Source: Actinomycetota bacterium
GTDB taxonomy: Bacteria > Actinomycetota > Actinomycetes > JACCUZ01
Length of the DNA: 64,000 nucleotides
NCBI GenBank assembly: GCA_030841035.1
Contig: JAVEDI010000022.1
Location: forward strand, 1 to 64,000
Direction of reading: 5' to 3'
A program made the translations under genes and the position numbers. Of the stretch, positions 15,239 to 47,524 are shown in pieces. How positions within the stretch are numbered: position 1 is the stretch's first letter; every line of letters starts with the position of its first letter. The notes under the pieces were generated by a model that did no database searches, was not told the DNA's origin, and saw only the letters and a program-made list of their open reading frames with translations.

Positions 15239-16741
15239 CTACCCGAGCGCGTCCAGCACCATGCGCGGCACCACCGAGAGCCACAGCGCCGCCCCCAGCG
15301 TGATGCCGATCGCCAGCCCGTCCGACCACGAGATGCGGTACGACGGCGGCCGTGACGCGCTCTCGGCCCCGGCGGGACCACCCAGCGGGCTGCGCACGTA
15401 CAGCGAGGCGGCCCAGCTCAGGTAGTAGTAGAGCCCGATCACGACGTTGACCGCCATGACGATCGCGAGCCAGCCGGTGCCCTGGGACACCGGCGCCTGG
15501 AACACGACCACCTTGGCGAACAGCCCGAGCAGCCCCGGCGGCAAGCCGGCCAGGCAGGCCAACGCGAACGCCAGCGCGAACGCGCTCAGCGGCTCCGTGC
15601 GCCCGAGACCGCGGTAGTCCTCGAGCCGGTTGGCCGGTCGATGGCGGCCGACCAGGGTGACGACCGCGAAGGCCCCCAGGTTCATGACGGCGTAGGCCAG
15701 CACGTAGGCCACGGTCGCGGGCAGCACTGCGGCCACGTCGCCCTTGCCGGCCGCCCCGAGCGGCACGAGCATGTAGCCGGACTGGGCGATCGACGACCAG
15801 GCCAGCAGCCGCACCGCCTGGCGCTGGCGCAGCGCGACGAGGTTCCCGACCGTCATCGACAGGGCGGCCAGCACCGCGATGACCGGCGCCCACACGTCGG
15901 CGTACGGCGCGAACCCCTGGGTCAGCAGTACGGCGAGGCCGACGAACCCGGCCGCCTTCGAGACCACGGACAGGTAGGCCGCCACCGGCACCGGCGCGCC
16001 CTCGTAGGTGTCGGGCGCCCAGAAGTGGAACGGCACCGCAGCGACCTTGAAGGCGAAGCCGGCGATGGCCAGCCCGACGCCCAGCACGAGGGCGGAGCTG
16101 CGCGTCGCGGGGTCGCCCAGCGCGGTCGCGATGCGGTCGAGGTGCACCGCCCCGGTGACGCCGTAGACGAGGCTCAGCCCGAACAGCGTGACCGCCGTGG
16201 AGACCACCGACACGAGGAAGAGCTTGAGCGCAGCCTCGCTGGCCCGCCCGTCGTAGCGCGGCAGGGCCACGAGCGCGAAGGCCGGCAGCGACACGACCTC
16301 GAGCGCCACGACCAGCGTGAGGACGTCGCGCGCCGCAGCCAGCGTGAGGGCGCCGGCGACGGACATCAGCAGCAGGAAGTAGTACTCCCCCGCAGGCAGC
16401 CGGGCCTCGGTCACCGTGTCGATCGAGAGCAGGACGACCACGAGGGCACCGAGCAGCACGAGCACCTGGAAGGCGAGGGTCAGGGAGTCGACGACGTAGG
16501 AGCACGACGGGAGGGCGAGCCCCTCACCAGGTACGCAGAACGTACGCCGGCTGTGGTCGGTGAGGGGGAGCAGCGTGGCCGTGGCCGCTGCCAGGCCGGC
16601 CAGCGTGACCCAGCCGGTGACCTGCTTGCGCTGTGTGCCGAGAAACGTGTCGAGAACCAGCACGGCCAGGCCGGCCAGCGCGACCACCAGCGGCGGGGTG
16701 ATCGCGACGTAGTCGATGGACTGCACCCCGCTCACGGTCAC
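15239..16741 (-). CDS. nuoN2: Complex I-like subunit N, second copy
   Basis: Antiporter-like membrane subunit, 500 residues and about 14 helices. The channel residues remain: Glu in [17 protein letters not shown], the first Lys in [15 protein letters not shown] and the second in [20 protein letters not shown]. It is clearly diverged from NuoN of the main operon (29224-30801). GTG start overlaps the nuoM2 stop (GTGA). It is the last gene of the operon A2 B2 C2 H2 I2 J2 K2 L2 M2 N2. Confidence 0.93.
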
Positions 16742-18231
16742 GCCCCGATCATGCGACGGACGACGGGCTCGGTGACGTCGAGCAGCAGCGCCGGCCACAG
16801 GCCGAGCGTGACGACCAGCAGCACGACGGGGCTCCACACCGCCAGCTCCAACGGCGTCGCGTCACGCATCAGCACCGCTTCACGCCACCGCTCGCTCGTG
16901 GTCCCTTGGGCGACGCGGCGCAGCAGCACGACAAGGTAGGTCGTGGTGAGCACGACCCCGATACCGGCCAGGGCCATCAGCACCAGGTAGTAGCCGCGGT
17001 CGAGCCCGGCAGCCGGGTCGAAGGCACCGAGCAGGGTGAGCATCTCGCCCCAGAAGCCGGCCAGCCCCGGCAGCCCGAGACTGGCGATCGCCGCGAAGGC
17101 GAGCAGGCCGCCGAGCCGGGGCAGCCGCTCGTAGAGCCCGCCGCCCAGCTCGTCGAGCAGTGCCGTGTGGTGGCGGTCCTTGATGGCGCCGGCGAGGAAG
17201 AAGAGCAACCCGGTGATGAGACCGTGGGCGACGTTGGCGAACAAAGCGCCGTTGAGGCCCACCGGGGTCAGGGTGGCGATGCCGAGCAGCACGAAGCCCA
17301 TGTGCCCGACGCTCGAGAACGCGATGAGCCGCTTGAGGTCGCGCTGCACGAGGCAGGCCAGCGCACCGTAGAGGATGCCGACGACGGCGAACGCGCCCAG
17401 CCACGGCGCCAGCGTCCGTGCACCGTCGGGCACGAGCGGCACCGCGATCCTGATCAGGCCGTAGGTGCCCATCTTCAGCAGGACGCCCGCCAGCAGCACC
17501 GAGCCGACGGTGGGCGCGGCGGTGTGCGCGTCGGGCAGCCACGAGTGCAGCGGCCACATGGGCGTCTTGACTGCGAAGCCGAGCGCCAGTGCGGCGAACG
17601 CGAGGACCTGGACGCCGTGCGAGAGGCCGCCACCGCCACGCTCGGTCAGCGCTTCGATGTCGAAGGTCCCGGCCTTGAAGCCCACCAGCAGGATGCCGAG
17701 CAGCATCACGGCGCTGCCGAGCAGCGTGTAGAGGATGAACGTGTTCGCCGCGCGCACCCGGGCGACCGCGTCGCTGGTGTCGCCCCACTGGGCGATCACG
17801 AACCACATCGGCACGAGCACGACCTCGAAGAACACGAAGAACAACAGGAGGTCGAGGGCGACGAAGGTCCCGAGCATGCCGACCTCGAGCAGCAGGAGCA
17901 GGCCGATCAGGCCGCGCGGCCGGCCGGCCTCGGGCAGCACCTTGAGCGAGTAGACCGTGCACAGCAGCGTGAGACCCGCCGTGAGCAGCACCAGCGGCGA
18001 CGAGATGCCGTCCACACCGAGGTGCAGGCGCAGTCCGAGGCTCGGCACCCATGCGACGTCGGTGCTCGGCTCGACCGCGACGACCCAGCACGCGAGCAGC
18101 GCGGTGACGCCCGTCGTGACGACGCCCAGGCGTACGGCGACCCGGTCGCCGAGCCGGGGCGGGGCCAGCAGCAGCGCGACGGAGCCGGCCAGCGGTATCC
18201 CGAGCAGCAGCGGGATCAGCGCGCCCGTCAT
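16738..18231 (-). CDS. nuoM2: Complex I-like subunit M, second copy
   Basis: Proton-pumping antiporter-like subunit, 497 residues. The conserved Glu is in FFVFFEVVLVPMWFVI (near 135) and the pump Lys in AVKTPMWPLHSWLPDAHT (near 223), with the quinol-oxidoreductase family signature GLPGLAGFWGEMLTLLGAF late in the protein. So the membrane arm looks functional for proton transport. ATG start overlaps the nuoL2 stop (ATGA). Confidence 0.95.
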   Translation of the reverse strand: MTGALIPLLLGIPLAGSVALLLAPPRLGDRVAVRLGVVTTGVTALLACWVVAVEPSTDVAWVPSLGLRLHLGVDGISSPLVLLTAGLTLLCTVYSLKVLPEAGRPRGLIGLLLLLEVGMLGTFVALDLLLFFVFFEVVLVPMWFVIAQWGDTSDAVARVRAANTFILYTLLGSAVMLLGILLVGFKAGTFDIEALTERGGGGLSHGVQVLAFAALALGFAVKTPMWPLHSWLPDAHTAAPTVGSVLLAGVLLKMGTYGLIRIAVPLVPDGARTLAPWLGAFAVVGILYGALACLVQRDLKRLIAFSSVGHMGFVLLGIATLTPVGLNGALFANVAHGLITGLLFFLAGAIKDRHHTALLDELGGGLYERLPRLGGLLAFAAIASLGLPGLAGFWGEMLTLLGAFDPAAGLDRGYYLVLMALAGIGVVLTTTYLVVLLRRVAQGTTSERWREAVLMRDATPLELAVWSPVVLLVVTLGLWPALLLDVTEPVVRRMIGA

Positions 18232-20135
18232 GTCAGCGTCACCACCCCGACCGCGAGCAGGACGACGCCCGCCAGCAGCCCGGTGAGATAGGTCTGCACG
18301 TTGCCGGCCTGAGCCCGGCGGAGCAGCCCGGCGACGCGGGTCGCCTCGGTGCCCGAACCCGCGACGGCGGCGCCGATGACCCCGTCATCGGTCCAGCGGA
18401 CCGAACGCGCAGCGAGCCGGACCGGCCGCACGAACAGCCGGTCGTAGAGGTCGTCGACCCAGAAGGCCTCTTCGAGCGCTGGCCGCAGCCGCTGCAGCCG
18501 CAGGCTCGGGTCCCGCGAGGGGGCGCGCCGCCACACGGCCAGCACCGCGGCGAAGCCGCCGAGCGCCAGGACGATCGACAGCACCGAGGTGACCGCGCCG
18601 ATGTGCAGCGGCCTCGCCGGGAAGGCGGGGTCGAGCGGTGTGATGCCACCGGGCACCCGCTCGTCGAGGGACAGCCAGTGCGGCAACCAGCCGTGCCCGA
18701 GGCCCGCGAACCCGAGCAGAGCAGCCGGGACGGCAAGGACGACCAGCGGCCAGCGCATCGCCGGCGAGGACTCGTGCACCGCGATCCCGCTGCGGGGGGC
18801 GTCGAAGAACGTCATGAGCCACAGGCGGGTGACGTACGCCGCGGTCACGGCGATCGTGAGCAGGCCCACCACCAGCACCAGCCACGCCGCCCACGACGCC
18901 ACCGGCCCCTCGTGCAGCGCCGCCTCCTCGGCGGCACCGAGCACCGCCTCCTTGGAGAAGTAGCCGGAGAACGGAGGCAGGCCGGTGAGGGCGGCGAGGC
19001 CGACCGTCATGGTCGCGAAGGTGACCGGCATCGCCTTGCGCAGGCCACCCATGTCGCGCAGCAGGTTGGTGCCGACGGCATGGATCACCGAGCCGGCGGC
19101 CAGGAAGAGCAGCGCCTTGAAGGCCGCGTGGGTCAGCAGGTGGAAGACCGCCGCGGTCGCGGAACCCACCGCGAGGGCCGCCAGCATGTAGGCGAGCTGG
19201 CTGACCGTCGAGTAGGCCAGCACCCGCTTGATGTCGTCCTGGGCCAGGGCCGCGAGGGCCGCGCCGAGCATCGTGACGCAGGCGATGACCGCCATGACGG
19301 CCAGCGTGACGGGAGCCGCGAGGAAGACCGGATAGAGCCGGGCGACGAGGTAGATGCCGGCCGCCACCATCGTCGCCGCGTGGATCAGGGCGCTGATCGG
19401 AGTGGGGCCGGCCATCGCGTCGGGCAGCCACACGTGCAAGGGGAACTGCGCCGACTTGCCGACCACACCGCACAGCAGCAGCAGCGTCGCGACCGTGACC
19501 GTGTGCTCGGACAGGCGCCCGGCCTCGCCGACGGCGTGGCTGATCCGGAAGCTGCCTGCGGCGACTCCGAGGGTGAAGATGCCGAAGAGGAAGCCGACGT
19601 CACCGAGCCGGGTGACCACGAACGCCTTGACCGCGCTGCGCTGCGCGTCGGGCTGCTCCCAGTGGTGGCCGATCAGGAAGTAGGAGCAGACCCCCATGAC
19701 CTCCCAGCCGACGAGCAGGACGAGCAGGTCGTCGGCGAAGACCACCAGCATCATCGCGGCGGTGAACAGGGAGACGAACGCGGCGTAGGAGGAGTAGCGC
19801 GGGTCGCCCTTGAGGTAGGCGACGGAGTAGACCTGCACCGCCAGCGCGACGACGCCGACCGCGACCGCGACCAGGGCCGCGAGACCGTCGACGCGCAGGT
19901 CGACGCCGATCGGCAACGTGCCCGTCGGCACCGAGGCGAGGTGCGCCGAGTCGCCGTAGCGGCCCGTCGCGCCGGCGGTCACCGCTTGCGCGGCGGGCCA
20001 GAGCACCGCGAGCAGGGCGACAGCCGCGCCGCTGACCGCGACGGGAACCGCCGTGCGCGGCCGGCGCCCTCCGGTGAAGAACCCGGCCACCGCCGCGAGG
20101 AACGGCGCGAGGACGGCCACGTAGACCGGCGTCAC
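18228..20135 (-). CDS. nuoL2: Complex I-like subunit L, second copy
   Basis: Largest antiporter-like subunit, 635 residues, with the C-terminal lateral helix region expected of NuoL. Key motifs: [17 protein letters not shown] with the conserved Glu near 145, [18 protein letters not shown] with the Lys near 225, and [21 protein letters not shown] start within the nuoK2 stop (GTGA overlap). Compared with the main-operon NuoL (643 residues) it is similar in length but clearly different in sequence. Confidence 0.95.
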
Positions 20136-20491
20136 GTGGCGACCGCCTGCTCGTCAGCCGTCACGGGCAGCGCCGTCGGCGGGTCGGTCTCGCGCAGGTC
20201 GGTGAGGCCGTCGAGCTCCACCGTGGCCCGGTTGCGGAAGACGAGCAGCACGATCGCGAGCCCCAGCCCGATCTCGGCGGCCGCGATGGTGATGACGAAG
20301 AGCGTGAACACCTGCCCGGCGAGCAGGCCGTCGCGCAGGTAGACGTCGAACGCGACGAGGTTCAGATTGACCGCGTTGAGCATCAGCTCGACCGCCATGA
20401 GCACGAGGATCGCGTTGCGCCGGGCCAGGACGCCGTAGACCCCCAGGGCGAACAGCAGAGCCCCCACCATCAGCGGCATCAACAGCGGCAT
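20132..20491 (-). CDS. nuoK2: Complex I-like subunit K, second copy
   Basis: Small membrane subunit, 119 residues, three helices. The two buried glutamates are present in [15 protein letters not shown] (helix 2) and [15 protein letters not shown] (helix 3). About 20 residues longer than the main NuoK owing to a hydrophilic tail (about 95-119). The ATG overlaps the nuoJ2 stop. Confidence 0.95.
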
Positions 20492-21039
20492 CAGTCACCG
20501 CTGCGGGTGTCGAGGGGAACGGGGTCAGGCGAGATGTCGCGCCGGGACAGCACGATGGCGCCGACCAGGGCGGCCAGCAGCAGGAGGGAGAGCACCTCGA
20601 ACGGCAGCACCCAGCTGCCGAAGATGGCCTCGCCCGCCTGCCGTGCCGATCCGGCGACGTGGTCACCCGACAGGTCGATGCGCGCGCCACGGAAGGAGTC
20701 GACCAGCGACGCGACGAGCACTCCGGCGACCGCGGCGGCAGTGACGGCCGCGGCGACCTGCTGGCCGCGGGAGGAGTCCAGCTCGTCGGACGCCCCGATC
20801 GGCGCGCGCGTGAGCATCAGGCCGAACAGCAGCAGCACGACCACCGCACCGACATAGATGAGCACCTGCACCCACGCGACGAACTCAGCCGAGAGCAGCA
20901 GGAAGCAGCCGGCCACCGCTCCGAGCGTCAGCACCAGCCACAGTGCCGCGTGCACGAGGTGGCGGGTGGTGACGACCAGCACGCCGGAGCCGACGGCGAC
21001 CACGCCGAGCAGCGCGAACAGCACCTCGACCGTGCTCAC
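20491..21039 (-). CDS. nuoJ2: Complex I-like subunit J, second copy
   Basis: Membrane subunit, 182 residues and five helices, with the family segment [20 protein letters not shown] (TM3, near 57), whose pi-bulge region couples quinone chemistry to proton transfer. It lacks the long C-terminal extension of the main-operon NuoJ (265 residues). GTG start overlaps the nuoI2 stop (GTGA). Confidence 0.94.
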
Positions 21040-21569
21040 CCGTCGGCCGGCTCGGGGCGGTCCGGCTTCTCGAGCGACTTGAGCGCCGCGTCGAGCTCCT
21101 TGGGGGGTGGGCCCTGGCTGTCCAGCGCGGGCGGGGCGGGCACGGTGGCCATCCAGTCGCCGAGCCGGCCCTTCTCGTGCGTCAGGTTGCGGATGTCGAG
21201 CTCGGCGTACTCGAACTCGGGTGACCAGAACAACGCGTCGAACGGGCAGACCTCGATGCAGATGCCGCAGTACATGCACAGCGAGAAGTCGATGGCGAAC
21301 CGGCCCAGCACGTTGCGCTGCCGCTCGCGCCCGCCGGGCGCCGCGGGGATGGTCTCCTTGTGCGAGTCGATGTAGATGCACCAGTCCGGGCACTCGCGCG
21401 CGCACAGCATGCACACGGTGCAGTTCTCCTCGAGCAGCGCGATCACGCCGCGGCTGCGCGGCGGCAGCTCGGGCTTGACGTCGGGGTACTGGTCCGTGAC
21501 CGCCGGCCGCGTCATCGTGCGCAGCGTGACGGCCAGTCCCCTGACCAGTCCGGTTCCCGGCACCTTCAT
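21036..21569 (-). CDS. nuoI2: Complex I-like subunit I, second copy (2 x 4Fe-4S)
   Basis: Peripheral iron-sulphur subunit of 177 residues. Both ferredoxin motifs are complete: [18 protein letters not shown] (near 50) and [16 protein letters not shown] (near 97), so clusters N6a and N6b should form and pass electrons towards NuoB2. In complexes without NuoEFG this subunit is a likely entry point for ferredoxin electrons. 14 nt separate it from nuoH2. Confidence 0.95.
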
Positions 21570-21582
21570 CGGGTCACGTCCC

Positions 21583-22542
21583 TCATGTGATGAGCACCTC
21601 CACGACGCCGGTCAGCGCCAGCTGCAGCAGGGCGACCGGTACCAGACCCTGCCACGAGAGCCGCTGCAGCTGGTCCTCGCGCAGCCGCGGGTAGGACACC
21701 CGCAGCCAGATCACGACGAAGGCCAGCACCATCGTCTTGATCAGCGTCCACAGCCAGCCGAGCGACTCGGCGTACGGCCCGTGCCACCCGCCCAGGAAGA
21801 GGACCGTCGTCAACGCGCACAGCACGACGATGCCGGCGTACTCGGCGAGCAGGAACAGCGCGAACCGCAGCCCGGTGTACTCGGTGTAGGCCCCGAAGAT
21901 GATCTCGCTGTCGGCGACCGGCATGTCGAACGGGGGTCGCTGCAGCTCGGCCAGGCCCGCGACGAAGAAGACGACCGCGCCAGGCAGCTGCCACAGCAGC
22001 CACCACGGCTGCCACTGCTGCACGATGCCCGACAGGGACAGCGTGCCGGCCGCCATCGCGACCGAGGCGGCCGCGAGGAGGAACGGAAGCTCGTAGGCCA
22101 TCAGCTGGGCCGCCGTGCGCAGGCCGCCCAGCAGGGAGAACTTGTTCGCGCTCGCCCAGCCCGCCATCAGCGAGCCGAGCACCCCGACGCCCATGACCGC
22201 GACCACGAAGAACAGGCCGAGGTCCAGGTCCTGCGCGACCAGGCCCGGCCCTACCGGGATCGCAACCAGCACGACGAGGTAGGGGATGAGCGCCACCGCC
22301 GGAGCGAGCTTGAACACCGTGGCGTCGGCCGCGGCCGGCACGATGTCCTCCTTCTGCGCGAACTTCACCCCGTCGGCCACCAGCTGGGCCCAGCCGTGGA
22401 AGCCGCCGGCGTACATCGGGCCGAGCCGTGACTGCATGTGCGCCATCGCCTTGTGCTCCGTCTGCCCGACCACCAGCGGCAGCACGAGGAAGGCCCCGAG
22501 CACCAGGAGCACCCGCAGTGCGCCCTCGAGCACGTCGATCAC
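21583..22542 (-). CDS. nuoH2: Complex I-like subunit H, second copy, altered glutamate loop
   Basis: Membrane subunit joining the two arms and forming the quinone chamber, 319 residues, about eight helices. Start GTG 22542 overlaps nuoC2. Most of the family pattern is kept ([51 protein letters not shown]). However, the cytoplasmic loop that normally reads [11 protein letters not shown] (as in the main NuoH) is [11 protein letters not shown] here: the first of the three glutamates is Val and the second Asp. Those residues shape the quinone site and the E-channel, so this copy may use another quinone geometry or couple differently. Confidence 0.94.
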
Positions 22543-23159
22543 GGCGCCGCCTCGGGTCGCGGGCCCCATGCCTGCGGGTCGGGGACGCCGGGCGGGCGGG
22601 TCTTGCGCCGCCCGGGTGACCCCGACCCTCGGGCCGGGAGCCCGACGTCCGCGTCGGACTCGCCCGGCTCCTTGGCTCCTGGCCACGCCTTCGCGGCCCG
22701 GGCGGCGAGCACGAAGCTCTTGCGCAGCGGGTGCCCCTCGAAACCGTCGGGCAGCAGCAGCGGCACGAGGTGCGGGTGACCGTCGAAGACCAGGCCGAAC
22801 ATCTCGAAGGTCTCCCGCTCGTGCCAGGACGCGCCCTTGAAGACCCCGGTCACGGTGGGCAGGCGCAGGTCGTCGGCCGGCACCCGCGTGCGCAGCAACA
22901 GGTGCTCACGACGCTCGACGCACCACAGGTGCGCCACGACGTCCAGCCCGGGCGCCTCGGCGACGTCGAGCTGGTCGACCGCGGTCAGCCAGTCGAAGAA
23001 GGTGAACCCGAGCGCGCGCGCCGCGGTGATCGCCTCGACCCAACGACCGGGGGGGACGTCGACGGTGTCCTGGCCGAGCGCTGACTCGACGGCGCAGTCG
23101 GGGCCGAGCCCCGCGACGAGGGCGTCACCCGGGCGCGCGCCGGGAGGCTCAGTCGTCAT
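22539..23159 (-). CDS. nuoC2: Complex I-like subunit C, second copy
   Basis: 30-kDa-type subunit of 206 residues from ATG 23159. The family signature [20 protein letters not shown] (near 115) is followed by [16 protein letters not shown]. The Pro/Gly/Arg-rich tail (about 165-206) is short and contains no NuoD-like sequence, so this is not a fused NuoCD. Its start lies inside the nuoB2 stop region (11-nt overlap) and its stop overlaps nuoH2, leaving no room for nuoD. Confidence 0.93.
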
Positions 23160-23721
23160 CGCCGGCGGCGACCGAGCCGACGGTGGTCGAGGGGGCGTGG
23201 CCGGCGTACCGCTCCGGCAGCGACTCGGCGGCGATCTTGTCCTGCAGCCGCAGGATGCCCTGCAGCAGCGCCTCGGGCCGCGGCGGGCAGCCAGGGACGT
23301 AGACGTCGACGGGCACGATCTGGTCGACGCCCTTGGTGACGCAGTAGGAGTCCCAGTAGGGGCCGCCCGAGTTGGAACAGGCACCGAACGAGATGACGTA
23401 CTTGGGCTCGGGCATCTGGTCGTAGAGCCGCTGGATCGCCGGCGCCATCTTGTCGGTCACCGTGCCGGAGACCACCATCAGGTCGGCCTGGCGAGGTCCG
23501 GGCGCGAACGGGATGACACCCAGCCGGATGAAGTCGTGGCGCGACATCGACGACGCGATGAACTCGATCGCGCAGCACGCCAGCCCGAAGTTGAAGACCC
23601 AGAGGCTGTAGCGACGTCCCCAGTTGAGGATCAGCCGCATCGGCTCCGGCGCCAGCCGCTGCAGCGGCCCCAGCGTGGGGTGCGGCAGCTCCACCGCACT
23701 CACGACACGTTCCTGAGGCAC
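23149..23721 (-). CDS. nuoB2: Complex I-like subunit B, second copy (cluster N2)
   Basis: Holds the terminal cluster N2. It has 190 residues from GTG 23721; a GTG six codons later (23703) is an alternative. All four cysteines are present: the tandem pair in [10 protein letters not shown] (near 49), one in [12 protein letters not shown] (near 114) and one in [12 protein letters not shown] (near 143). Cluster N2 should therefore assemble, although the usual NuoD partner is not encoded in this operon. Confidence 0.95.
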
Positions 23722-23722
23722 G

Positions 23723-24094
23723 TCAGGTCCATGTCAGTACTCCCTTGCGCCAGGCGTAGAGCAGGCCGACGGCGATGAAGCCGAGGAAGACGAACATCTC
23801 GGCGAGCGTCGTCGCGCCGTAACCGGGCGCCGCGAAGACCGTCGCCCACGGGAACAGGTAGATCGCGTCGACGGCGAAGATGACGTAGAGGTAGGCGAAC
23901 ACGTAGTAGCGGATGTGGCTCTGGGCCCAGCCCTCCCCGACCGGGTCGACGCCGCATTCGTAGGTCGTGCGCTTGCCGGGCGCCGGCGCCGAGGGTCTCA
24001 GCAGGCGGTTCGCGGTGAGGGCAGCGGTGACGAACGACACTCCGACCAGCAGCACGACCCCGACGAGGGCGTAGTCACCGTAGAAGTCGTGCAT
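23723..24094 (-). CDS. nuoA2: Complex I-like subunit A, second copy
   Basis: First gene of the second operon: 123 residues, three helices (about 8-30, 65-85, 95-115). Family motifs [11 protein letters not shown] (near 47) and [20 protein letters not shown] (near 70) are kept, including the Cys of the switch loop. ATG 24094; CGGAGGTGCGAGCGG upstream provides a plausible ribosome site. It diverges from korA, whose start is 136 bp away. Confidence 0.94.
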
Positions 24095-41146: not shown

Positions 41147-41958
41147 GCTTCGGTGCCCTTCTCCTTGTCGGACGGGGTGGCGTCGTGATCGGGATCGGAG
41201 TGTGACGTGCTGGCCGGGGCATCGCTCTCGCTGGGTCCGCCGGCGCGACCGTAGCCGGTGCCGGAACCGCCGGACGCCGGTGCCGTACGTCGGGTGGCGG
41301 CGTCGCCGTCCTGGTGGCCGCGGTCCTGCTGCTGGGCGATCTGCAGGCCGACCAGCGTCGCGGGACCCGCCGATGGTCCCTCGTCAGCCAGCCCGTCGGG
41401 GAAGCCGGCGAGCACCCGGGAGACCTGCCTGAACGTGCACAGCCGCGGACCCCGCGTGGGCTGCACATCGCGACCCGCGCGCAGGGCGTCGACGAGGTCG
41501 GTCGCCGACTGCGGCGTCTGGTTGTCGAAGAACTCCCAGTTGACCATCACGACCGGCGCGTAGTCGCATGCCGCGTTGCACTCGAGGTGCTCGAGGGTGA
41601 CGATGCCGTCCTCGGTGGTCTCGTCGTGACCGACGCCCAGGTGTTCCTTGAGCCGGGCGAAGATCTCGTCGCCGCCCATGATCGCGCACAGCGTGTTGGT
41701 GCACACGCCGACGGTGTAGTCGCCGTTGGGCCGCCGCTTGTACTGCGAGTAGAAGGTGGCGACCGCGGCGACCTCTGCCGTCGTGAGGTCCAGCAGCTCG
41801 GCGCACAGCTCGATGCCGCGCGGGCTGACGTAGCCCTCCTCCGACTGCATCAGGTGCAGCAGGGGCAGCAACGCCGACCGGCTCCTGGGGTAACGGCCGA
41901 TGATCTCCTTGGCGTCGACCTCGAGCCGAGCCCGCAGCTCGGTGTCAAAGCCGCTCAA
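41143..41958 (-). CDS. nuoE: NADH-quinone oxidoreductase subunit E
   Basis: 2Fe-2S (N1a) subunit of the NADH module, 271 residues from TTG 41958, which overlaps the nuoD TGA (TTGA). Motifs [13 protein letters not shown] (near 96) and [16 protein letters not shown] (near 137) supply the four cysteines. A disordered C-terminal tail (about 200-271, rich in Ser, Asp, Gly) exceeds the E. coli protein (about 166 residues). No ATG or GTG fits better at the start. Confidence 0.94.
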
Positions 41959-43310
41959 CGGTCCACTCCCCCCATCACCGGGTCGATCGACGCGATCGCT
42001 GCGATCACGTCGGCGACCATGCTGCCCTCGGACATGGCGGGGGCGGCCTGCAGGTTGTTGAACGACGGGTCGCGGAAGTGCACCCGGTAGGGCCGCGTGC
42101 CGCCGTCGCTGACCAGGTGCACGCCGAGCTCGCCGCGCGGCGACTCGATCGCGGAGTAGACCTGGCCGGGCGGCACCCGGAAGCCCTCGGTCACGAGCTT
42201 GAAGTGGTGGATGAGGGCCTCCATCGACTGGCCCATGATGTGCTTGATGTGGTCGAGGCTGTTGCCGAGACCGTCGCCGCCGAGCGCGAGCTGGGCCGGC
42301 CAGGCGATCTTCCTGTCCTCGATCATCACCGGCCCGGGCTGCAGCTTGTCGAGGCACTGCTCGACGATCTTCAGCGACTCCTTCATCTCGGTCATCCGGA
42401 TGAGGAAGCGGCCGTAGGCGTCGCAGGTCGTCTCGGTCACGACGTCGAACTCGTACTGCTCGTAGCCGGCGTAGGGCTGGGACTTGCGCAGGTCGTGGGG
42501 CAGGCCGGTCGCGCGCAGGATCGGCCCGGTGACCCCGAGCGCCATGCAGCCGGTCAGGTCGAGGTATCCGACGCCAACCGTGCGCTCCATCCAGATCTTG
42601 TTGCCGATCAGCAGCTTCTCGGTGTCCGACAGCCGCTCGGGCAGCAGCTTGAGCAGGTCGCGCACCCGGTCGACGGCACCGGGCGGCAGGTCCTGGGCCA
42701 CGCCGCCCGGACGGAAGTAGGCGTGGTTCATGCGCAGCCCGGTGATCATCTCGAAGATGTCGAGGATCAGCTCGCGCTCGCGGAAGCCGAACGTCATGGC
42801 GGTGAGGGCACCGAGCTCCATGCCGCCGGTGGCGACCGCCACCAGGTGGGAGGAGATGCGGTTGAGCTCCATGAGCATCACGCGGATCACGTTGGCCCGC
42901 TCGGGCACCTCGTCCTCGATGCCGAGCAGTCGCTCGACGCCGCGCACGTAGGCGTACTCGTTGAACAGCGGCGCGAGGTAGTCCATGCGCGTGACGAACG
43001 TGACGCCCTGGGTCCAGTTGCGGTACTCGCAGTTCTTCTCGATGCCGGTGTGCAGGTAGCCGATGCCCAGCCGGCACTCGGTGACCGTCTCGCCGTCGAG
43101 CTCGAGGATGAGCCGGAGCACCCCGTGCGTCGATGGGTGCTGCGGGCCCATGTTGACGACGATGCGCTCCTCGGCGGTCTCTCCGAGGGCCGCCGTGATG
43201 TCGTCCCAGTCCTGGCCACCGACCGTGTAGACGGTGCCCTCGGTCGTCTCGCGCGACGCCGAGTAGGGATCGCCGTCCGCCGTGGGGACGTTGATGATCT
43301 TGTCGCTCAT
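41955..43310 (-). CDS. nuoD: NADH-quinone oxidoreductase subunit D
   Basis: 49-kDa subunit related to the hydrogenase large subunit, 451 residues; forms the quinone pocket with NuoB. Signatures [20 protein letters not shown] with the quinone His (near 65), [34 protein letters not shown] and the C-terminal GGVDR. ATG joins the nuoC stop as TGATG. It is the only nuoD in the window, which matters for the D-less second operon. Confidence 0.97.
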
Positions 43311-44029
43311 CAGTTGTAGGACCTCCGCTCGTCCGGCGGCGGGATCTGGGCGCCCTTGTACTCCACCGGGATGCCCCCCAGCGGGTAGTCCTTGCGCTGC
43401 GGGTGGCCGGGCCAGTCGTCGGGCATCTCGATGCGGGTGAGGCCGGGGTGCCCGTCGAAGACGATGCCGAAGAAGTCCCACGTCTCGCGCTCGTGCCAGT
43501 CGTTGCCGGGGTAGACCGACACGATCGAGGGGATGTGCGGGTCGCCGTCGGGACAGGTGACCTCGACGCGCACCCGCCGGTTGTGGGTGACCGACATCAG
43601 CGGGTAGACGGCGTGCAGCTCGCGACCGGTCTCGGTGGGGTAGTGCGCACCCGAGACGCCCATGCACATCTCGAAGCGCAGCGAGGGGTCGTCGCGCAGC
43701 GCCTGCATGACGGTGACCAGCGAGGCGCGACGTACGTGGAAGGTGAGCTCGCCGCGGTCGACGACCACGCGCTCCACGGCATCGCCGTAGCCGAGGTCAC
43801 CGCCCTCGCCGAGCGCCCGCTCGAGCGTGTCGGCGACGTCGTCGAACCAGCCGCCGTAGGGCCGCGGCGTCGCGCCGGGCAGCTGGACCGGGCGGACCAG
43901 CCGGCCGTAGCCGGACGTGTCGCCGCTGCCCTGGGCCCCGAACATGCCGTGCCGTACGTCGACCGTCTCGGCCTCCGCGGGGGCAACCGGCGGCTGGGTC
44001 TCGGGCAGCGACCGGTCGAGCTCACTCAT
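43310..44029 (-). CDS. nuoC: NADH-quinone oxidoreductase subunit C
   Basis: 30-kDa subunit, 239 residues. The signature [18 protein letters not shown] (near 195) and [20 protein letters not shown] (near 213) are present. N-terminal 80 residues are low-complexity and poorly conserved, as in other actinobacteria. Separate from NuoD, not fused. Confidence 0.96.
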
Positions 44030-44038
44030 CGCAGGACC

Positions 44039-44593
44039 TCATCGCAGCAGGCCCTTCATCTGCGCGGTCGGCTTGGCGGTCAGCGCGAGCGCCTCGTTCT
44101 CCTTGACCTCCGCGGCCCGGTGGGCGCCGAGCTTGGTGTTGCTGATCTGGTCGTGGAGCTTGATGATGGCGTCCATCAGCATCTCGGGTCGTGGTGGGCA
44201 GCCGGGGAGGTAGATGTCGACCGGGACGACGTGGTCGACGCCCTGCACGATGGCGTAGTTGTTGAACATGCCGCCGCTGGAGGCGCAGACGCCCATGGCC
44301 AGCACCCACTTGGGGCCGGGCATCTGGTCGTAGATCTGGCGCAGCACCGGCGCCATCTTCTGGCTGACCCGACCGGCCACGATCATCAGGTCGGCCTGGC
44401 GTGGCGAGGCGCGGAAGACCTCCATGCCGAAGCGCGCGAGGTCGTAGCGCGGCGTCCCCACCGCCATCATCTCGATGGCGCAGCACGCCAGGCCGAACGT
44501 CGCGGGCCACAGTGAGCTCTTGCGCATGTAGCCGGCGAGCTTCTCGACCGACGTCAGCAGCACACCGCTAGGGAGCTTCTCTTCGATACCCAT
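44039..44593 (-). CDS. nuoB: NADH-quinone oxidoreductase subunit B
   Basis: N2-cluster subunit, 184 residues, starting [20 protein letters not shown]. Four cluster cysteines in [11 protein letters not shown] (near 37), [13 protein letters not shown] (near 102) and [12 protein letters not shown] (near 132). The start at 44593 is preferred; a GTG/ATG 17 codons upstream would overlap nuoA and add a Gly/Ser-rich leader. Confidence 0.96.
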
Positions 44594-44609
44594 CCGTCCG
44601 GTCGCCTCC

Positions 44610-44969
44610 CTAGTCCCACTCGAGCCCGCCGCGCCGCCAGACATAGGCGTAGGCGGCGAGCAGGGTCAGGATGAACAGCACCATCTCGACGAGACCGAAG
44701 ATGCCCAGCGAGTCGAAGTACACGGCCCACGGGTAGAGGAAGACGATCTCGATGTCGAAGACGATGAACAGCATCGCCGTCAGGTAGTACTTCACCGGGA
44801 AGCGGCCCCCGCCCACGGGCTGCGGCGTGGGCTCGATGCCGCACTCGTAGGCATCGAGGCGGGCCCGGTTGTAGCGCTTCGGGCCGGTCAGGGCTCCCGC
44901 GGCGATGGAGAATGCCGCGAACCCCAACGAGAGAGCGCCGAGCACGAGGATCGGGACGTAGCTGTCCAC
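44610..44969 (-). CDS. nuoA: NADH-quinone oxidoreductase subunit A
   Basis: First gene of the complete nuoA-N operon: 119 residues, three helices. [18 protein letters not shown] (near 38) contains the switch-loop Cys, and [20 protein letters not shown] (near 64) the conserved acidic residues. GTG start. The 144-bp upstream gap to the flavoprotein gene contains a possible promoter (about 45044). Confidence 0.96.
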
Positions 44970-45043
44970 GCCGGGCTCACTCCCCTCTGTCGTCGCGCCC
45001 GTGCAGCGCGAGCCGTCGCACCCGGCGCGTGGCCGGGCTTGCC

Positions 45044-45073
45044 ATCCTAGGAGCGCGCCCGTCGACGGCCGAA
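45044..45073 (-). promoter_or_regulatory. Candidate promoter for nuoA-N
   Basis: On the minus strand TAGGAT (45044-45049) makes a good -10 box, with a weak TTCGGC (45068-45073) 18 nt upstream as -35. The start of transcription would be about 70 nt before the nuoA GTG. Tentative; the operon might also be read through from the flavoprotein gene. Confidence 0.35.
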
Positions 45074-45113
45074 CCGGGGTTGTGCAGGTCTCGCCTGCTG
45101 GTCGCGCCCATCC

Positions 45114-46391
45114 TCAGGCCGCCGGCGCGAGCCGGGACAGTGCGTTGACGACGCGGTCCATGGCGTCGCCGCCGCGCGGGTCGCTGAGGTTGGCCATCAG
45201 CTTGAGGACGAAGCGCATCAGCACCGGATGCGGCAGGCCGTGACGGGTCGCGAGCTTCATCACCCGGTCGTCGCCGATCAGCTTCACGAACATCCGGCCC
45301 ACGGTGTAGTAGCCGCCGTAGCTGGCCTTGAGCGCCTGCGGGTACGCCGCCAGGGCGCGCTCGCGACCGTCGTCGGTGGGCCGGGCCAGTGCCTGGGCGA
45401 TGACCTCGGCGGCCAGCTGACCCGACTCCATGGCGTAGGCGATGCCCTCACCGTTGAAGGGGTTGACCATGCCGCCCGAGTCGCCCACGAGCAGCATCCC
45501 GCGCGCGTAGTGGGGCTGCCGGTTGAAGCCCATCGGCAGTGCGGCGCCGCGCACCGGCTGGGTACGGTTGTCCTCCCGGAACCCCCACTCCTCGGGCGTC
45601 TGGTCGAGCCAGCGGCGCAGCAGGTCCTTGTAGTCGACCTTGCCCCACGCCGTGCTGGTGTTGAGGATGCCGAGGCCGACGTTCGAGGTGCCGTCACCGA
45701 CGCCGAAGACCCAGCCGTAGCCGGGCAGCAGCCGCTCGCGACCGTCGCTGCCCCTGTCCCACAGCTCCAGCCACGACTCGAGCCAGTCGTCGTCGTGGCG
45801 CGGGCTCGTGTAGTAGGTGCGGACCGCGACACCCATCGGGCGGTCGTCGCGCTTGTGCAGGCCCATGGCGAGGGACAGGCGGCTGGAGTTGCCGTCGGCC
45901 GCCACGACCAGCGGCGCGCGGTACGTCACCTCGCTGCCGTCCTCGTCCGTGGCGGTGACCCCGGTGATCCGGCCCGTGCGGTCGTCGAGCACCGGACCCT
46001 GGACGTTGGTGTTCTCCCGCAGCACCACGCCGGCCTTGACCGCCTGCCGCGCCAGCAGGTCGTCGAAGTCCGAGCGGGGGCGCACCAGGCCGTAGGCCGG
46101 GTAGCTGGCGAGGTCGGGCCAGGGCAGCTCCAGCCGCATGCCTCCGCCGATGATGCGCAGGCCCTTGTTGTGCAGCCAGCCGGCCGGCTCGCTGGTGTCG
46201 ATGCCCATGGCCGTGAGGGACCTGACCGCGCGGGGGGTCAGGCCGTCGCCGCAGACCTTCTCCCGCGGGAACGCGGACTTCTCGAGCAGCAGGACGTCGA
46301 CGCCGGCCTGGGCCAGGTGGTAAGCGGTCGTCGAGCCACCGGGGCCGGCCCCGACGACGATCACGTCGGCGTCGTTCGGGGCGCTGCTCAC
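45114..46391 (-). CDS. Geranylgeranyl reductase family flavoprotein (MenJ-like)
   Basis: FAD-dependent oxidoreductase, 425 residues. Dinucleotide motif ADVIVVGAGPGGSTTAYHLA (near 8), the CGDGLTPRAV segment (near 48), and LLVGDSGGMVNPFNGEGIAY (near 290). The actinobacterial homologue MenJ reduces one isoprene of menaquinone; geranylgeranyl-lipid reduction is the alternative. Start: GTG 46391 has an excellent GGAGGTGGACACC ribosome site; the GTG ten codons upstream has none. It precedes nuoA and follows csbD/menG. A Rex-like operator lies 36-54 bp upstream. Confidence 0.9.
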   Translation of the reverse strand: MSSAPNDADVIVVGAGPGGSTTAYHLAQAGVDVLLLEKSAFPREKVCGDGLTPRAVRSLTAMGIDTSEPAGWLHNKGLRIIGGGMRLELPWPDLASYPAYGLVRPRSDFDDLLARQAVKAGVVLRENTNVQGPVLDDRTGRITGVTATDEDGSEVTYRAPLVVAADGNSSRLSLAMGLHKRDDRPMGVAVRTYYTSPRHDDDWLESWLELWDRGSDGRERLLPGYGWVFGVGDGTSNVGLGILNTSTAWGKVDYKDLLRRWLDQTPEEWGFREDNRTQPVRGAALPMGFNRQPHYARGMLLVGDSGGMVNPFNGEGIAYAMESGQLAAEVIAQALARPTDDGRERALAAYPQALKASYGGYYTVGRMFVKLIGDDRVMKLATRHGLPHPVLMRFVLKLMANLSDPRGGDAMDRVVNALSRLAPAA

Positions 46392-46427
46392 GGTGTCCAC
46401 CTCCGCGGCACGGGTTGGCACGTGCGC

Positions 46428-46445
46428 TTGTGAAATGTTTCACGA
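46428..46445. promoter_or_regulatory. Rex-like redox operator
   Basis: TTGTGAAATGTTTCACGA is an inverted repeat (GTGAAA-TG-TTTCAC) matching the Rex consensus TTGTGAAnnnnTTCACAA with one mismatch near the end. Rex represses respiratory genes when NADH/NAD is low and is known to control nuo and cyd genes in Streptomyces. The site lies just downstream of a -10-like TAGACT (46461-46466), an expected place for repression of the flavoprotein gene and perhaps nuo. Confidence 0.65.
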
Positions 46446-46473
46446 TCTACGACGGGCGTCAGTCTACGACGGG
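46446..46473. repeat. 11-bp direct repeat in the flavoprotein promoter
   Basis: TCTACGACGGG occurs at 46446-46456 and 46463-46473, starts 17 bp apart, directly beside the Rex-like site. The minus-strand -10-like boxes TAGACT and TAGATC fall in the two copies, so it may be a duplicated promoter or a second activator site. Confidence 0.6.
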
Positions 46474-46510
46474 GTGCGGGCGCCGGGCCATCGGGCTACC
46501 GGATCGCGAA

Positions 46511-46540
46511 GGCCCGCTCCGCGTGGGCACGGAGCGGGCC
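46511..46540 (-). terminator. Terminator after the CsbD-like gene
   Basis: A perfect 11-bp stem GGCCCGCTCCG/CGGAGCGGGCC with an 8-nt loop, flanked on the minus strand by AGG before it and TTCGC after it. It lies 43 nt past the csbD-like stop and would separate that gene from the flavoprotein promoter. Confidence 0.85.
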
Positions 46541-46582
46541 TCGACCGCGGCTCCGGCAGTCGTCACCGGAGCGGGATCCTGC

Positions 46583-46756
46583 TCAGTTCTTGAAGGCGTC
46601 CTTGACCTTCTCGCCGGCCTGCTTGAGGTCAGCCTTGCTCTGGTCGCGCTCGCCCTGGTGACGCAACGCGTCGTCGCCGGTCGCCGATCCCACAGCCTCC
46701 TTGGCCTTGCCGCCGAGCTCCTCGAGCTTGTTGTCGGCCTTGTCGTCCATGCCCAT
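46583..46756 (-). CDS. CsbD-family small stress protein
   Basis: A 57-residue hydrophilic protein: MGMDDKADNKLEELGGKAKE followed by AVGSATGDD and a second repeat QSKADLKQAGEKVKDAF, the CsbD pattern. Such proteins are induced by general stress sigma factors; biochemical role unknown. ATG 46756 has a GAGGAG site 6 nt upstream. Confidence 0.9.
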   Translation of the reverse strand: MGMDDKADNKLEELGGKAKEAVGSATGDDALRHQGERDQSKADLKQAGEKVKDAFKN

Positions 46757-46831
46757 GTCGACTCCTCGTTGCCCGACCGCCGTTGCGGGTCGCCGACGGT
46801 GCTGCCACACCCCTTGCCGAGCAGGCGCCGA

Positions 46832-47524
46832 TCAAACCCTCCGGGCCCGGTGCAGGGCGACGATGCCGTAGCTGAGGTCCGCCCAGGCCACGTCCGCCCA
46901 GCCCGCGCCCTGCAGCCGGGCAGCGAGCCCGGGCTGGTCGGGCCAGGCCCGGATCGACTCGGCCAGATAGACGTAGGCGTCGGGGTTGCTCGACACCCGG
47001 CGCGCCACGGACGGCAGCGCCCGCATCAGGTAGCCGCTGTAGAGCGTGCGGAACGGTCGCCAGGTCGGATGGCTGAACTCGCAGACCACCAGCCGTCCAC
47101 CCGGACGGGTCACGCGCGCAAGCTCCCCCAGGGCGGCGTCGACGTCGGTCACGTTGCGCAGCCCGAAGGAGATCGTCGAGGTGTCGAAGCTCGCGTCGGC
47201 GAACGGCAGCCGCAGCGCGTCACCGGCCACCAGCGACAGCTCGGGATGAGCCTGCTTGCCGACGCGCAGCATGCCGAGCGAGAAGTCGCACGCCACCACG
47301 AAGGCCCCCGCGGCGACGAACGGCAGGGACGACGAGCCGGTGCCGGCCGCCAGGTCCAGGACACGGTCGCCGGGCCGCGCATCGACGGCGCGGGCAACCG
47401 CACGGCGCCAGGCCCTGGTCTGCCCCAGGGACAGGACATCGTTCGTGAGGTCGTACCGGCTGGCGACGGCATCGAACATCGCGGCGACCTCGTGCGGCTC
47501 CTTCTCCAGGTCGGCTCGGGTCAC
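46832..47524 (-). CDS. menG: Demethylmenaquinone methyltransferase
   Basis: SAM-dependent C-methyltransferase (UbiE/MenG family), 230 residues, last step of menaquinone synthesis. Family signatures [20 protein letters not shown] (near 11), SAM motif [15 protein letters not shown] (near 53) and [14 protein letters not shown] (near 122). GTG at 47524 chosen; upstream sequence in this frame is unlike MenG. Same strand as and 75 nt before csbD; the sigma factor gene diverges 137 bp away. Confidence 0.95.

Follow-up and report, generated by a model that had tools for sequence, protein, structure and literature searches.

A predicted Rex operator at the head of a proposed menJ-like–nuo transcription unit and its order-dependent place among actinomycetes

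In a 64,000-nt stretch of Actinomycetota bacterium DNA (GenBank assembly GCA_030841035.1, contig JAVEDI010000022.1, positions 1 to 64,000; hereafter the window), a menJ-like gene stands ahead of complex I genes, and the palindrome upstream of it is, judging from its letters and its conservation, very probably a Rex operator. We consider it likely that this site is the Rex operator of a menJ-like–nuo transcription unit gated by NADH, with a second nuoA promoter giving a base level. The operator and the genes concerned are as follows.

46428 to 46445, no strand assigned: predicted Rex operator, an 18-bp imperfect palindrome, from motif match and conserved place in relatives
45114 to 46391, minus strand: menJ-like gene, geranylgeranyl reductase family (TIGR02032, 270 bits, cut-off 159)
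44610 to 44969, minus strand: nuoA, first complex I gene of the cluster (NF005922, 210 bits, cut-off 155)
44039 to 44644, minus strand: nuoB open frame (NF005012, 254 bits, cut-off 116)
43310 to 44029, minus strand: nuoC (NF005856, 414 bits, cut-off 224)
41955 to 43667, minus strand: open frame with nuoD, in which residues 170–570 match (NF004739, 584 bits, cut-off 360)

TTGTGAAATGTTTCACGA occupies positions 46428–46445, and the menJ coding strand reads TCGTGAAACATTTCACAA. The site differs from the Rex consensus TTGTGAANNNNTTCACAA at one position, which bears out the match claimed by the sequence-only reading, and it was the sole match in the window at up to three mismatches. The menJ-like gene probably begins with a GTG at 46391 that has GGAGG upstream; this corrects the start at 46421 and thus places the operator's end 36 nt before the start codon. 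The same palindrome is retained in 68 menJ-side sites of relatives, where GTGAA and TTCAC are invariant save for one T12. Directly after the operator, GCG is found in 36 of these 68 sites, and CGC directly precedes it in 24; these flanks hint that in some families the Rex palindrome is longer.

Searching the genome, a 3.95-Mb draft of 120 contigs with the window inside contig 50, we found a single rex gene (C50:72739), which lies outside the window, 8.7 kb beyond its end, and is followed by hemA. The closest named matches of the organism are actinobacterial. The Rex protein scored 362 bits on the Rex equivalog model (cut-off 226) and matched solved Rex structures at E 1e-44, so the absence of a rex gene, which the sequence-only reading had listed against its own proposal, is excluded. 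That reading had also suggested looking for the motif elsewhere in the genome. Across the 3.95 Mb, TTGTGAANNNNTTCACAA occurred in two places at one mismatch and in three at up to two mismatches (reversed control, none at up to two), with 15 further places at exactly three mismatches (reversed control, one). Beside the menJ site, the three comprise C50:73026, 50 nt upstream of the likely rex start (rex-hemA), and C20:15540, 90 nt upstream of an 83-aa WhiB-family gene that lies beside a histidine-kinase-like gene. A classical Rex target is cydA; this gene is present (G000:C73:31766, L200), and the 4 kb around it held no Rex-like site, the best match having six mismatches. Both rex and wblE of Streptomyces avermitilis are Rex targets by gel shift, ChIP and footprint (PMC5355995).

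A chance origin of the palindrome can be ruled out on three counts and has a negligible probability. In dinucleotide-shuffled versions of the window, 0.08 matches to TTGTGAANNNNTTCACAA were expected at up to three mismatches (at least one match in 7 of 100 shuffles), the genome-wide control was nearly empty, and the palindrome is conserved before menJ in 21 numbered families.

We then searched a sample of 118 genomes of the class for rex, menJ and nuoA and examined 117 pieces that surround menJ, nuoA or both. Four genomes with neither a menJ nor a nuoA match (G029, G080, G090 and G100) were left out, giving 114 testable genomes; second, weaker full-length menJ matches (G026:C1:1468375 and G035:C17:123304) were left out of the pieces, two partial menJ genes (L155, L178) were excluded from the menJ-side counts, and G043, whose PF06971 match fell short of the cut-off, was classed as rex-negative. 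Among rex-positive genomes, 90 of 97 have an operator in front of the first gene of the menJ-nuo or nuo unit; among rex-negative ones, 1 of 17 does (n = 114; Fisher P = 3e-13, uncorrected for kinship). Operator-positive genomes span 27 numbered families, and the rex-negative genomes are confined to five (f4, f7, f12, f19 and f21). The reversed pattern was found in none of the 117 pieces within three mismatches. Seven rex-positive genomes were misses: in G002 and G110 menJ has no adjoining nuoA, in G004 the contig ends inside menJ, and in three f4 genomes and G069 (whose menJ-like gene is 55% identical) nuoA is present and the operator absent. Among rex-negative genomes the only hit was G059 (94% complete), which carries the operator with no rex match; rex is found in two congeners (G012, G031).

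The Rex consensus overlaps that of CRP-family regulators, and two PF13545 matches over cut-off show that CRP-family proteins are encoded in this genome. We therefore considered whether the palindrome is instead a CRP/FNR-family (GlxR-like) site, TGTGA-N6-TCACA, in which the inner bases are free and the outer T and A fixed. The columns behave otherwise: A7 is kept in 68 of 68 menJ sites and T12 in 67 of 68, though both are free in a CRP site, and 42 of 68 have C at base 2, where a CRP site has a fixed T. Since operator presence also tracks rex across the genomes, we rejected the CRP/GlxR identity, which we regard as very improbable. The Rex identity proposed from the window's letters is, by comparison, well supported by the presence of rex, by rex's own site and by the tracking of rex. 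Separately, a CRP-like palindrome with central TA (TGTG..TA..CACA) replaces the Rex operator in the nuoA pieces of four of eight f4 genomes (loci L185, L197, L205 and L214), two of which are rex-positive (G027, G091); it is possible that the regulator at nuo has changed in this family.

The place of the operator depends on gene order. Where menJ abuts nuoA (gap <500 nt), the operator lay before menJ in 65 of 66 rex-positive pieces. In pieces with a displaced menJ (family f16, whose nuoA sites equal those of the named Streptomyces loci described below), it lay before nuoA in 9 of 9 and at menJ in none, and where no menJ stands upstream it preceded nuoA in 15 of 18 rex-positive pieces. Two operators are present in four of nine f14 genomes (L165, L164, L134 and L152), the one at menJ and a weaker one at nuoA with two or three mismatches.

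A second set comprised named loci: relatives of the menJ-like gene were confirmed at 583, of which the best 80 were used, with operators called at up to three mismatches; this set is Streptomyces-rich, includes near-duplicates (L042, L044 and L057 share an identical operator) and may overlap the 118-genome sample. Among these best 80 of 583, nuoA lay within 200 nt of menJ in 24 loci, with the operator before menJ in 22 and before nuoA in none; nuoA lay at least 551 nt away in 21, with the operator before nuoA in all 21 and at menJ in none; and nuoA was not found in the remaining 35, none of which had an operator at menJ. Culturable relatives with menJ first and the operator ahead of it include Thermobifida cellulosilytica (L090) and Actinopolymorpha (L027, L036). 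At 16 of the 21 displaced loci in this best 80 of 583, the nuoA site is TTGTGACCTGCTTCACAT, which equals, letter for letter, the footprinted Rex operator (ROP) of S. avermitilis nuoA1 (PMC5355995). One named locus, L042, is titled a Bifidobacterium breve MAG and has the operator and spacing of the freshwater-type actinobacterial MAGs L044 and L057; it is probably misnamed or mis-binned.

In both sets, then, the operator goes with the first gene of the nuo unit, be it menJ or nuoA, and the simplest interpretation is that Rex control over nuo is maintained by selection. The tracking of the unit's head also argues for read-through from menJ into nuoA.

Two predicted elements on the minus strand describe the menJ promoter region.

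46461 to 46466, minus strand: TAGACT, the predicted −10 element of the menJ promoter, 15 nt upstream of the operator; TA[GC][AG][CA]T is conserved
46511 to 46540, minus strand: strong hairpin behind the csbD-like gene, a probable transcript end, with no T-run

Among the 68 menJ-side sites, TANNNT occurs 7–17 nt upstream of the operator in 65 (shuffled mean 6.4); 59 have an upstream match to the stricter TA[GC][AG][CA]T (shuffled mean 1.3), the controls for these hexamer counts being mononucleotide shuffles. Given the 15-nt spacing from TAGACT, Rex would sit just after the start point, and the operator would span about +9 to +27, with the transcription start read from the −10. The sequence-only reading had placed the site 'at the promoter'. 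The conserved −10-like TAGACT and a predicted start upstream of the operator favour this, and a sigma-70 consensus scan of 44800–46850, which returned no promoters, does not. Of 28 nuoA-side operators, 21 have TANNNT within 30 nt on their upstream side and 1 has it on the downstream side, a placement that sits uneasily with the published map of S. avermitilis nuoA1 (PMC5355995).

Upstream of the menJ unit come a demethylmenaquinone methyltransferase gene and then the csbD-like gene. The region 46490–46560 folds at −52.8 kcal/mol (z −6.4) and went unflagged by the T-run terminator scan. Because this stable hairpin, which has no T-run, follows the csbD-like gene, menJ probably heads its own transcription unit.

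The arrangement within the unit is as the sequence-only reading had it, the menJ-like gene being followed on the minus strand by nuo: nuoA starts (44969) 144 nt beyond the end of the menJ-like ORF (45114). Its naming of the enzyme as a menaquinone reductase is not established. Membership of the broad geranylgeranyl reductase family (TIGR02032) stands, and no other gene of the genome matches MenJ better, but the MenJ equivalog NF045655, whose cut-off is 700 bits, gave its protein 257 (256 when searched genome-wide). It thus shares the superfamily of MenJ and lies far under the equivalog cut-off; its substrate is putative, and the 'saturation state of its quinone' is something we infer.

The window also holds a second complex I set (nuoA-, J-, L-, M- and N-like genes) at 15242–24058 on the minus strand, about 20 kb from the first. 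A scan of the window at up to three mismatches found no Rex-like site at this second cluster and no site in the window other than the one at menJ, and Rex control of the second cluster was rejected.

Whether one operator serves both menJ and nuo turns on the gap between them, which contains one further candidate element.

45044 to 45049, minus strand: −10-like TAGGAT in a conserved block of the menJ-nuoA gap, a possible operator-free second nuoA promoter

Hexamers of the TAGGAT/TAGACT type occur in 35 of 69 menJ-nuoA gaps (shuffled mean 6.2). Among the five closest sequences the block CTCCTAGGATGGCAAGCCCGG is conserved in an otherwise diverged gap, with TAGGAT in four and TACTCT in one. This suggests a second nuoA promoter, without an operator, in the gap, and on account of the conserved TAGGAT Rex may gate nuo only partly. 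Following TAGGAT, at 45016–45049 on the minus strand, there is a GC-rich stem-loop (CCCGG...CCGGG) that most of the closest sequences share and that may form the 5′ end of a nuoA leader. The gap fold showed no extra stability over shuffles (z +0.8).

The same hexamers could mean that the Rex site governs the menJ-like gene only, while the gap promoter (TAGGAT, 45049–45044) drives nuo without response to Rex; the second operator before nuoA in the four f14 genomes, as if the first were insufficient, points the same way. We find this unlikely. If the menJ-like gene alone were the target, the operator should not move to nuoA where menJ is displaced (9/9) or absent (15/18), nor should displaced menJ genes lack it, as they do in the genome pieces (0/9) and, among the best 80 of 583 named loci, both where nuoA is distant (0/21) and where it was not found in the locus (0/35). 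In family f17, moreover, none of nine gaps (53–96 nt) has such a hexamer, yet the operator is still at menJ, and the T-run terminator scan of 44800–46850, gap included, returned none. The earlier suggestion of a single operator for menJ and nuo is supported indirectly by the site's position at whichever gene heads the nuo unit and weakened by TAGGAT in the gap.

We favour a shared menJ-nuo unit, which would work as follows. At low NADH/NAD, Rex would occupy the 18-bp palindrome just downstream of the start and block initiation or escape of RNA polymerase. A rise in NADH would release Rex and allow the reductase to be made; read-through of the 144-nt gap, in which no T-run terminator is recognisable, would then lead to complex I, helping to restore NAD. 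The second nuoA promoter probably keeps a Rex-independent base level, to which Rex control would add, with no on/off switch. In the menJ-first order, Rex would thus reach nuo by way of the menJ promoter and of transcription that runs on into nuoA.

Rex control of nuo is known in Streptomyces (PMC5355995), and the S. avermitilis nuoA1-N1 ROP shares with the site described here the regulator family, the palindrome and the target complex. It differs in place: the S. avermitilis operator is at nuoA, mapped from −42 to −16 (PMC5355995), whereas here it precedes a menJ-like gene adjoining nuoA and lies past the predicted start. A closer match to the geometry predicted here is S. avermitilis cydA1B1CD, with a protected region from −3 to +25 that covers the start and the bases after it (PMC5355995), although the target is another one, and cydA of this genome is without a site. 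In that study nuoA1 expression was higher without rex and under oxygen limitation rose only slightly and then fell in both strains (PMC5355995).

The coaggregation class of Actinomyces oris that includes insertions in nuoA also includes those in a geranylgeranyl reductase gene 163 bp away, along with nuoJ, nuoG and two unrelated genes (PMC5478893). The reductase gene adjoins nuoA, as here, and the relevant passages of that paper do not mention Rex; the insertions do not distinguish a polar effect from an effect of the enzyme (PMC5478893). The shared phenotype class fits either a shared unit or a shared function. Our literature search, which covered few subscription journals, found no paper with a menJ or geranylgeranyl reductase gene under Rex or with the menJ-first arrangement, and comparative work on Rex regulons may list the site. 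To the Rex–nuo link already known from Streptomyces, the present site adds an order-dependent place of the operator.

More broadly, we put forward tentatively, with somewhat more doubt than conviction, that in most of the rex-bearing actinomycetes sampled one Rex operator couples the amount of complex I to menaquinone saturation, NADH/NAD setting both, atop a Rex-independent nuoA promoter, and that where the gene order is split the operator remains at complex I, leaving the reductase free of redox control. The observed placement yields a testable rule, namely that actinobacterial complex I would be fitted to NADH load through an operator to be sought at the head of the unit, whatever gene stands there. 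Scans just upstream of nuoA alone would miss it in menJ-first genomes. The arrangement would also place a probable quinone-modifying enzyme under Rex, so that menaquinone saturation under redox control becomes a direct question.
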